Both the position numbers and the translations under genes were made by a program. A stretch of DNA of 64,000 nt from positions 1 to 64,000 of the forward strand of contig JAJDDM010000126.1 in assembly GCA_029260315.1 (NCBI GenBank). The letters are read 5' to 3'. Source of the DNA: Phycisphaerales bacterium (GTDB taxonomy: Bacteria; Planctomycetota; Phycisphaerae; Phycisphaerales; UBA1924). Numbering within the stretch: the stretch's first letter is position 1; each line of letters begins with the position of its first letter. Positions 4,449-51,750 of this stretch are shown in pieces. A model generated the notes under the pieces. That model ran no database searches and was not told where the DNA came from. It worked only from the letters and a program-made list of their open reading frames with translations.

Positions 4449-4489
4449 CGGCGCAAGCGCCGCGTTGCCTCGCAGCGAGCCCACTCCCC

Positions 4490-4650
4490 GTGCCACCAGC
4501 CGTGGCTTTGCACGGCTGGTGCTTCTGGGAGAGTGCCATGAAACACCAACCGCTCAAAGCAGCGGTTGGTGGCACGACGCTCGACACCCGCGCAAGCATC
4601 CTGCCGCGAAGCGCTTGTGACAAACAACGCAAATGGCTCGCAAGCTCGCA
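4490..4650. repeat. Palindromic dispersed repeat, family A copy 1
   Basis: Core of 86 bp bounded by GTGCCACC and its complement GGTGGCAC (4490-4575). Inside are two separate hairpins: CCAGCCGTG...CACGGCTGG and CCAACCGCT...AGCGGTTGG. The similarity to copy 2 (35175-35409) continues past the core through GCAAGCATCCTGCCGCG and CTTGTGACAA to about 4650. It fills the gap between two convergent genes and ends about 30 bases from the neuB stop. No transposase is encoded; it resembles REP/MITE-type non-autonomous elements. Confidence 0.85.
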
Positions 4651-23993: not shown

Positions 23994-24180
23994 GGGTGCC
24001 GTAGTCTGAGGAGGCTCCGCGGGCGAACGCCCTGCCGGGTGCCGTGGTCTGAGGAGGCTCTGCGACGAAGGCCACGCCATCGGCACAGCGATCACCCATG
24101 AAGCAGTAAACGCCGGTATCGAACAAACCCAGGTGCATCCGCGTGGCCTTCGCTCGAAGACTCACTCAGACCACGGCACC
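23994..24180. repeat. Palindromic dispersed repeat, family B copy 1
   Basis: Long inverted repeat with ends GGTGCCGTGGTCTGA (24038 onward) and TCAGACCACGGCACC (to 24180); GGCCACGC / GCGTGGCC pair further in. A truncated extra left end (GGGTGCCGTAGTCTGAGGAG, from 23994) sits just before it. It fills most of the 297-bp gap between the ROK and ispE genes. Other copies are at 48053-48145 and 51611-51750. Confidence 0.85.
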
Positions 24181-32045: not shown

Positions 32046-32060
32046 TGCGCCGGTCCATCG

Positions 32061-32193
32061 GAGCCGCGTGCGTGAGCACGCGGACCGAGATCGCTCGCCC
32101 GGCGAAGACGCCCGACCCCGCGGGATCTCGGCCTCATTCCGAGACCTCGTTCCATTCCTGAGCGCAAGGCTCGCGTGCTCACGCACGCGGCTC
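32061..32193. repeat. Inverted repeat, 22-bp perfect arms (GAGCCGCGTGCGTGAGC type)
   Basis: Left arm GAGCCGCGTGCGTGAGCACG.. (32061-32082) and right arm (32172-32193) are perfect reverse complements. A second inverted pair, CCGAGATC / GATCTCGG, lies between them. It occupies nearly the whole 173-bp gap between the convergent PQQ-propeller and rpiB genes. Confidence 0.8.
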
Positions 32194-32218
32194 TGATCCA
32201 ACTCATGCGCAAGTTGCG

Positions 32219-35104: not shown

Positions 35105-35174
35105 GCCTTCCTCGCGGGCGAACCTCGTCCCTTTGCAACGATCGCGTAGCAATCAGCATCCGCGACATCAATCC

Positions 35175-35409
35175 CAGGCCCGACCGTGAGAGCCATTTGC
35201 GTCAACCGGCGGAGAGATCGAACAACTGCGGATGACCGAGCGACGTGCCACCAGCCGTGGCTTTGCACGGCTGGTGCTTCTGGGAGAGCGCAAAAAAACA
35301 CCAATCGCTCAAAGCAGCGGTTGGTGGCACGACGCGAGACACGCGTGCAAGCATCCTGCCGCGCAGCACTTGTGACAAGCGACGAAAATGGCCCTCACGG
35401 TCGGGCCTG
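35175..35409. repeat. Palindromic dispersed repeat, family A copy 2 (fullest copy)
   Basis: Outer arms of about 29 bases (35175-35203, CAGGCCCGACCGTGAGAGCC..., and 35381-35409) pair with about three mismatches. They enclose the 86-bp core (35245-35330) bounded by GTGCCACC / GGTGGCAC, with two inner hairpins as in copy 1. The element fills most of the 410-bp gap between the pseudopilin and comEC genes; no gene is seen in the remainder. Confidence 0.87.
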
Positions 35410-47222: not shown

Positions 47223-47981
47223 ATGCCCAGCAGGACCACCACGCGGAAGTCGACGCACAGCGCCGGCAGGAAACGAACCCCGGCCCGCAAGTCGGCGAGC
47301 CCCCGGAAGTCGGCGACGACCCGCAAGCCCGCTCGCAAGAGCCCCACCCGCAAGAGCACCACCCGCAAGAGCTCGACCGCGACCAAGGCCCGCAAGAGCC
47401 CGGCACGCAAGAGCACCACCCGCAAGCCCGCCGCTCGCAAGACCACCGCCGCCAGCAAGCGCCGCACGACTACCGCGAGCAAGGCCCGCAAGAGCCCGAC
47501 GCGCAAGTCGACGACCGCTCGCAAGCCCGCGGCCCGCAAGACCACGACCGCACGCAAGACCACCGGCGCCAAGCGGACGACCGCCCGCAAGGCGACGACG
47601 GCCCGCAAGCCCGCCGCTCGCAAGAACACGACGGCCCGCAAGAACACCGGCGCCAAGCGGACGACCGCCCGCAAGACCACGACCGCCAGCAAGCGCCGTC
47701 CCGCGACCGCGCGCAAGAGCACGGCCCGCAAGCCCGTCGCTCGTAAGAGCACCGCACGCAAGACCACCGCGCGCAAGCCCGTGGCCCGCAAGAACACCGC
47801 TCGCAAGGCAACAACCGCCCGCAAACCGCGCACCACGGCCCGCAAGGCCAGCACGAACAAGCGGACCACCGCGAAGCGCACTATCGCTCGCAAGCCCGCG
47901 GCCCGTCGCACGACCGCGCGCACGCTGCGCATCGGCAACGCCCGCAGCAGCAGCCGCGCGACTTATCGTCGCGCCGCCTGA
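47223..47981 (+). CDS. Histone H1-like Lys/Arg/Thr repeat protein
   Basis: 252-aa, extremely basic low-complexity protein made almost wholly of Ala, Arg, Lys, Thr and Ser. The basic unit is TTARK / KPAARK, repeated about 40 times, resembling the C-terminal tails of eukaryotic H1 and chlamydial Hc1/Hc2 proteins. It should bind DNA through charge and help pack the nucleoid. The last ~15 residues (RIGNARSSSRATYRRAA) leave the pattern. AGGAG lies 7 nt before the ATG and a strong terminator follows, so it is a single-gene unit. In the DNA, CGCAAG recurs throughout, which keeps the other frames open and makes slippage likely; the opposite-strand ORFs are artefacts. Expression in growth or stationary phase cannot be judged. 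Confidence 0.8.
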   Translation: MPSRTTTRKSTHSAGRKRTPARKSASPRKSATTRKPARKSPTRKSTTRKSSTATKARKSPARKSTTRKPAARKTTAASKRRTTTASKARKSPTRKSTTARKPAARKTTTARKTTGAKRTTARKATTARKPAARKNTTARKNTGAKRTTARKTTTASKRRPATARKSTARKPVARKSTARKTTARKPVARKNTARKATTARKPRTTARKASTNKRTTAKRTIARKPAARRTTARTLRIGNARSSSRATYRRAA

Positions 47982-48052: not shown

Positions 48053-48145
48053 GGTGCCGTGGTCGAAGCGAGTCTTCGAGCGCAGGCCACGCGATTGCAC
48101 ATTCGACGTGGCGTTCGTCGCAAAGCCTCCTCACACCACGGCACC
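48053..48145. repeat. Palindromic dispersed repeat, family B copy 2 (short)
   Basis: 93 bp with ends GGTGCCGTGGT and ACCACGGCACC. The inner part keeps CTTCGAGCGCAGGCCACGCG and GACGTGGCGTTCGTCGCAAAG from the longer copies but is internally reduced. It lies right after the histone gene terminator. Its last 21 bases recur at 48251-48271. Confidence 0.8.
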
Positions 48146-48157
48146 CTCACGACACCC

Positions 48158-48245
48158 GTGCCACCGACCGCTGCTCTGAGCGGTCGGTGCTCTTACGCGA
48201 TCAGGACGAGAAGCACCGACCATGCAAAGCCATGGTCAGTGGCAC
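48158..48245. repeat. Palindromic dispersed repeat, family A copy 3 (reverse orientation)
   Basis: 88-bp core bounded by GTGCCACC and GTGGCAC. Compared with copies 1 and 2 the two inner hairpins are in reverse order, so it is inverted. Stem bases differ but changes are mostly paired: CCGACCGCT / AGCGGTCGG here against CCAACCGCT / AGCGGTTGG. It is flanked by a 21-base direct repeat from family B. Confidence 0.82.
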
Positions 48246-48250
48246 GAATC

Positions 48251-48271
48251 GCCTCCTCACACCACGGCACC
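48251..48271. repeat. Duplicated right end of family B element
   Basis: These 21 bases (GCCTCCTCACACCACGGCAC..) are identical to 48125-48145, the right end of family B copy 2. They lie on the far side of family A copy 3, two bases before the stop codon of the PHP-GT4 gene. Confidence 0.85.
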
Positions 48272-51610: not shown

Positions 51611-51750
51611 GGGGTGCCGTGGTCTGACGAGGCTCTGCGAGGAAGGCCACGCGAGCCGCCGGCGATACCCGAACGGCAAGGCTGTTTGAGAGCGCATGGC
51701 GGTGTCGGCGTGGCCTTCGCTCGAAGACTCGCATCAGACCACGGCACCCC
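51611..51750. repeat. Palindromic dispersed repeat, family B copy 3 (full)
   Basis: 140 bp with ends GGGGTGCCGTGGTCTGA and TCAGACCACGGCACCCC; GAAGGCCACGC / GCGTGGCCTTC pair further in. The central ~40 bases differ from copy 1. It lies in the 430-bp gap between the AhpD-like and coaD genes; apart from this and one hairpin no feature is seen there. Confidence 0.87.

Follow-up and report, generated by a model that had tools for sequence, protein, structure and literature searches.

A REP-type hairpin pair carried by a palindrome-targeting MITE, with a likely DDE insertion sequence partner, in Phycisphaerales

The window, a stretch of 64,000 nucleotides from a Phycisphaerales bacterium, contains three copies of a palindromic element, which a sequence-only reading had placed at 4490-4650, 35175-35409 and 48158-48245. 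On re-reading the window, we found these coordinates and sequences to be correct. The reading had also described outer ends and two internal hairpins common to all three, and this agrees with the cores at 4490-4575, 35245-35330 and 48158-48245, which run from GTGCCACC to GGTGGCAC, with AGTGGCAC in place of the latter at the end of copy 3. The common core measures 86-88 bp: GTGCCACC is followed by a hairpin with the loop GCTYTG and, after ~22 nt of spacer, by an inverted version of that hairpin. The sequence confirms that copy 3 is inverted relative to copies 1 and 2. The named stem differences, in which both arms change together, are present and paired, and these paired changes mark separate subfamilies. 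When folded as RNA, the three copies were far more stable than dinucleotide shuffles (z = -7.9, -6.4, and -5.6). The minimum-energy RNA fold of each was a single long hairpin, indicating that this structure and the two local hairpins are alternatives.

The three copies are not equivalent: one is a complete MITE, one a left-truncated MITE, and one a lone hairpin pair. Copy 2 is a complete 205-bp MITE on the forward strand at 35190-35394 (221.8 bits with nhmmer against the full-copy consensus), bounded by the terminal inverted repeats GAGCCATTTGCGTC (35190-35203, forward) and GACGAAAATGGCCC (35381-35394, reverse). Within it, sequence and folding define an 86-bp head-to-head REP-like hairpin pair, or BIME core (35245-35330, forward), made up of hairpin 1, CACCAGCCGTG-GCTTTG-CACGGCTGGTG (35249-35276, forward), and hairpin 2, CACCAATCGCT-CAAAGC-AGCGGTTGGTG (35299-35326, forward). 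Flank comparison places the MITE in a target palindrome of class ii, whose left arm occupies 35174-35189, with the loop GTGA at 35186-35189, and whose right arm, TCAC followed by GGTCGGGCCTG, occupies 35395-35409 (both forward). The interval 35175-35409 of the earlier reading covers the entire MITE together with both arms of this host palindrome. Copy 1, at 4489-4639 on the forward strand, is the left-truncated MITE (nhmmer positions 55-205, 168.6 bits); it begins at the hairpin core and continues from the pair into the right tail and the terminal repeat, so that copies 1 and 2 also have ~64 bp in common on the right-hand side of the hairpins. Copy 3, at 48158-48245 on the reverse strand, is a lone hairpin pair of another subfamily, with stems that differ from those of copies 1 and 2, and nhmmer with the MITE profile found no MITE ends there. 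Copy 3 is adjoined by another family of palindromic repeats, GGTGCCGTGGTC...ACCACGGCACC (48053-48146 and 48251-48271), which has more members at 24037-24180 and 51611-51750; the 21-bp sequence GCCTCCTCACACCACGGCACC flanks copy 3 on either side (48125-48145 and 48251-48271). Nearby, 47223-47981 encodes a Lys/Arg-rich repeat protein that matches histone H1-like HC2 (PF07382) and has internal repeats of 15-18 bp.

The hairpin has the consensus GTGC-CACC-N7-GCTYTG-N7'-GGTGC and is found throughout the Phycisphaerales, lying between genes alone or as inverted, BIME-like pairs, some of them with different stems, as in REP/BIME. The search for further genome copies proposed by the sequence-only reading found the half-site to be abundant: GTGCCACC-N7-GCTYTG has 101 forward and 110 reverse exact matches in the source genome (4.18 Mb, 195 contigs), compared with zero for a reversed half-site control pattern. 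A scan of named genomes with GTGCCACC-N7-GCTYTG-N7-GGTGC returned at least 55 stretches, and among the matches listed, nearly all came from Phycisphaerales or other Planctomycetota records. The scan pattern imposes no pairing on the N7 arms. Among the matches listed, these arms pair at 262 of 280 stem positions, compared with 175.6 (maximum 205) when the arms were re-paired. A formal covariation count, which left out two sequences from non-planctomycete records and in which 4 of the 11 stem pairs are constant because the search pattern fixes them, covered 38 distinct sequences among the matches listed; 97.4% of the cells were paired, and the score in register was 0.534, a value that 0 of 500 shuffles reached (0.153 for shuffled sequences), while slid versions scored no higher than 0.116. 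The hairpin fold is kept across species by compensatory change.

REPs of the GTAG and CGTC super-families are dispersed short palindromes, one end of which bears a constant unpaired tag; inverted dimers with differing stems are frequent, most lie downstream of genes, and GTAG repeats have been reported from the PVC group (PMC3733652). The family described here likewise consists of dispersed palindromes with a constant tag at one end and inverted dimers with different stems. As in REP/BIME, it is short, present in many copies, and mostly intergenic, the location having been counted on MITE copies only and with crude gene calls. It differs from the two super-families (PMC3733652) in its tag, GTGC, in its constant stem foot CACC/GGTG and loop GCTYTG, and in having no associated RAYT found in the source genome. 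The GTAG/CGTC tag is absent, and all copies seen carry GTGC, although GTGC is part of the search pattern, which misses relatives with other tags.

With a profile of full copies (205 positions), nhmmer identified 32 complete 205-bp MITEs, and truncated ones besides, in 1.57 Mb of the source genome, a sample enriched for MITE copies because its first stretches were picked at matches. The element is short, fixed at 205 bp, and without a transposase gene. It starts with GAGCGCTTTGCGTC, finishes with GACGCAAATGGCTC, and has 14-bp terminal inverted repeats of the GAGCGCTTTGCGTC type, which are identical between the two ends at 8-13 of 14 bp (at least 10 in 29 of the 32 copies). Fifteen of the 32 are flanked by an exact 4-bp target duplication, compared with 2.4 expected for re-paired flanks (0 of 20,000 shuffles as high); the duplication is missing from the other 17, window copy 2 (GTGA/TCAC) included. 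If the repeat is extended by one base at either end, 11 of the first 29 copies show 6 bp repeated, indicating a duplication length of 4 or 6 bp. Copies without a matching duplication often join arms from different palindrome classes and were probably produced by recombination between copies. In several truncated MITEs, the break lies near an edge of the hairpin core, at positions 51-55 or 143-150, which would fit recombination of lone with MITE-borne hairpin pairs. By crude gene calls, 20 of the 32 full MITEs are extragenic, versus 9.5% of random sites. Covariation within the MITE copies is almost absent: across the stems of the 32 complete copies, both arms were changed and paired at 1 of 704 positions, and one arm was changed at 9.

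We found no MITE outside the source species: a search of the GTDB r220 contigs excluding the source genome gave 0 matches, and a further 149 genomes of the family showed the exact terminal repeats only at background level (0-2), one occurrence being the IS of a congener. A long autonomous copy with two intact ends was sought in the source genome and rejected, the exact pairable terminal repeats there being all ~205 bp apart. The element resembles bacterial MITEs (PMC10969869) in being short and non-autonomous, in its terminal inverted repeats and target duplication, and in having an IS whose ends match its own; it differs in having a palindrome axis as its target and a REP hairpin pair as its cargo.

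Short dispersed palindromes of four classes host the MITEs, which sit at the palindrome axis. When MITE flanks are joined, 6.19 of 10 positions around the insertion point pair, compared with 2.68 at random sites, and the joined flanks form hairpins in which the loop corresponds to the duplicated 4 nt. Unoccupied palindromes with the predicted junction gave 33, 21, 28, and 43 matches for the four classes versus 0-4 for shuffled letters, and some match the junction letter for letter. According to crude gene calls, none of them lies inside a gene, and they are found between convergent genes more often than intergenic spaces overall. In the window, two unoccupied class iii targets of the GGTCCGCGTGCTCACGCACGCGGCTC type lie ~110 bp apart, at 32058-32086 and 32168-32196.

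The flanks of copy 2, GTGA/TCAC, repeat each other in inverted, not direct, orientation. They are complementary at 15 of 16 positions; among the other 31 MITEs, 30 have 3-10 such positions and one has 14. The left terminal repeat of copy 2 looks like the usual right end of the MITE. We interpret these odd flanks and the left end as the result of homogenisation of the arms, or of an exchange, once the MITE had inserted. The sequence-only reading had allowed that arm homogenisation might account for the paired stem changes; this seems to have occurred in the outer arms of copy 2 but not in the stems that it named.

We looked for the partner of the MITE by searching the source genome for DDE transposases. 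On contig C28, a DDE_Tnp_1 gene is directly followed by GACGCAAAAAGCTC and then by TCACGGTCGGGCCTG, which is half of a class ii palindrome, and the terminal repeat beside this gene exactly matches the MITE ends. The likeness seen between MITE and IS is that of the terminal repeat, with no match shown beyond it. This is the only IS copy assembled in the source genome; the contig start cuts the gene, and the left end is unread. A congener genome has a complete 981-bp IS, whose protein is 68% identical to the C28 fragment; its left end is GAGCCTTTTGCGTC (orientation as read), it has a TGAC duplication, and it lies inside a class ii palindrome. In a genome of another genus (G092), the IS gene is present in 21 copies. 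The 16 copies with both flanks read are 972 bp long and represent three near-identical versions; 12 have a 4-bp duplication, compared with 4.3 under random re-pairing (P = 5e-5), and their flanks form 7.6 of 10 centred pairs, the palindrome AGCCCCGGGC-GCGA-GCCCGGGGT being one target. This IS has the same ends and target preference as the MITE.

Relatives of the IS were detected in 18 of 400 genomes searched across the order, the source genome counted. For 14 ISs of the group from 11 genomes, with ends picked by the terminal repeat alone, the flanks form 7.2 of 10 centred pairs versus 2.6 at random sites; an exact 4-bp duplication stands at the chosen ends in only 5 of the 14, and some have 5- or 6-bp repeats. 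The transposase scored 75 bits against the NCBIfam IS982 model (NF033520; cut-off 130) and at best 51 bits against the IS5 models (NF033579-NF033581; cut-off 110). We assigned it to no family because these scores fall under every curated NCBIfam cut-off. A search for an IS1380-type transposase gave no match. Together, the shared ends and targets suggest that the ~975-bp IS with its DDE transposase is the likely mobiliser of the MITE. Another candidate for this role, encoding a 289-aa transposase and ending in AGGTTCTGTCTGACGG/CCGTCAGGCAGAACCT, was discarded, as it is a different IS5-type element that has inserted into a MITE copy, separating the two hairpins of that copy (L265:998-2120, G000:C179).

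Insertion at a REP axis has precedents in several IS families: ISRm22 (IS4 family, Sinorhizobium meliloti) and ISPsy8 (IS3 family) insert exactly at the REP symmetry axis, with direct repeats of 6 and 3 bp, respectively, and some ISRm22 copies lack matching repeats, which was put down to recombination between copies (PMC1525189). The present system has in common with them the insertion at the axis of REP palindromes, the direct repeats, and, as for ISRm22, copies without a match. In contrast to ISRm22 and ISPsy8 (PMC1525189), the transposase here is nearest to the IS982 and IS5 models, under their cut-offs; several unrelated palindrome classes serve as targets; and a MITE exists with the same ends that itself bears REP hairpins.

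The sequence-only reading had compared the elements with REP/BIME or structured RNAs, with the fold maintained. The REP/BIME likeness holds for the hairpin pair, which is abundant, mostly intergenic, inverted, and compensated across species. The three copies alone are insufficient for it, covariation within the MITEs is nearly lacking, and copies 1 and 2 were probably spread by a palindrome-targeting transposable element, which that reading had not anticipated. According to the classical REP/BIME explanation, a RAYT (Y1 HUH transposase) moves the hairpins directly, and the extra 120 bp are a longer BIME. The anatomy, inverted pairing, abundance, and cross-species covariation of the hairpins are all REP-like, and the source genome has RAYT-type genes, with 11 Y1_Tnp matches, some of them weak. 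However, the RAYT link suggested by the sequence-only reading failed, as a close flanking pair of GTGCCACC hairpins occurs at none of the RAYT-type loci of that genome, and the two best RAYTs (L031 and L032), which have open frames, are flanked by other repeats. For lack of GTGCCACC hairpins alongside, we also rejected a source-genome RAYT as the mover of the 205-bp unit. The hairpin is headed by GTGC, not GTAG, and the fixed terminal repeats and 4-bp target duplication of the MITE are unlike the products of Y1 enzymes; Y1 (HUH) transposition is not known to leave such ends. We consider this explanation quite unlikely for the element as a whole. An origin of the hairpin itself from a RAYT is possible, because RAYTs in two genomes of the same family are flanked by similar hairpins, headed by GTGCCAC with the loop GCTTCG in one (L140) and with the loop GCTTTG in the other (L141). 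Inverted hairpins 461 bp apart in G014 were considered as a RAYT REPtron and dismissed, with no RAYT gene in between. Two RAYT-type genes of the source genome, L075:2550-3007 and L076:8159-8985, each give matches in two overlapping frames and look frameshifted.

The hairpins might instead work in transcripts, as 3'-end stabilisers or terminators, with the covariation reflecting selection on RNA. Strong covariation across species, a constant asymmetric loop, RNA folds far better than those of shuffles, and the largely extragenic position of full MITEs and of all unoccupied palindromes speak for such a structured RNA. A REP acting at the DNA level predicts the same anatomy, however, and copy number and distribution follow the mobile element, while the copies vary in orientation and genic neighbourhood. 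An Rfam search of the window gave no match, and a known RNA family was discarded as the identity of the element. We regard a structured RNA as highly improbable; selection on the stems may act on DNA, as in REPs, or on RNA.

We consider it very probable that a REP hairpin pair is nested in a palindrome-targeting MITE with a DDE IS partner. At the sequence level, this is supported by the fixed ends, the target duplication, and the palindromic target with its unoccupied counterparts, by an IS that shares both ends and target, and by the cross-species stem covariation. In this nested arrangement, a REP-type hairpin of Phycisphaerales, single or in inverted pairs between genes and first spread by a RAYT-like or other enzyme, would form the first layer, and one pair of it would have become the cargo of a 205-bp non-autonomous MITE in the source species. 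The ~975-bp IS, which shares its terminal repeats with the MITE, most likely supplies the DDE transposase that moves the MITE in trans, and the MITE would insert at the axis of other short palindromes, duplicating their 4-nt loop (6 nt counting the closing pair). Copies 1 and 2 would have spread by this transposition, and copy 3 would be an independent member of the REP family; truncated copies and those without a duplication presumably arose by recombination between copies. Since unrelated palindromes are all hit at their exact centre, we tentatively suggest, as a possibility we hold with some doubt, that an unassigned DDE IS group across Phycisphaerales picks its target by shape (a hairpin or cruciform tip) and not by sequence, and that its MITE captured a REP pair here, so that palindromes of one family spread into the loops of other families.

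Each component is of a known kind (REP/BIME, MITE, and REP-targeting IS). As far as shown, the GTGC-tagged Phycisphaerales hairpin family, the MITE bearing that hairpin, and the palindrome-targeting IS group that hits the centres of differing palindromes are new, and so, it seems, is the nesting of a REP pair in a MITE. A class of planctomycete repeats would thereby be explained as nested mobile palindromes, with a MITE for which a likely IS partner is identified, and palindrome-targeted transposition becomes testable in a little-studied phylum. Whether a DDE transposase recognises the shape of DNA can be tested directly on the targets of the 14 ISs, which are unlike in sequence and alike in symmetry. 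With its clean covariation set, the hairpin family also lends itself to the question of whether selection at the DNA level or at the RNA level maintains REP stems.

Many contigs of the source genome (G000) begin or end within a MITE (for example, C30, C53, C68, C79, C100, C113, and C138), indicating that the assembly breaks at the MITE and that its real copy number is above our count. Finally, we observed a second MITE subtype at L076:12959-13137 (G000:C163), with similar terminal repeats, a hairpin pair, unrelated inner arms, and a TCGC duplication.
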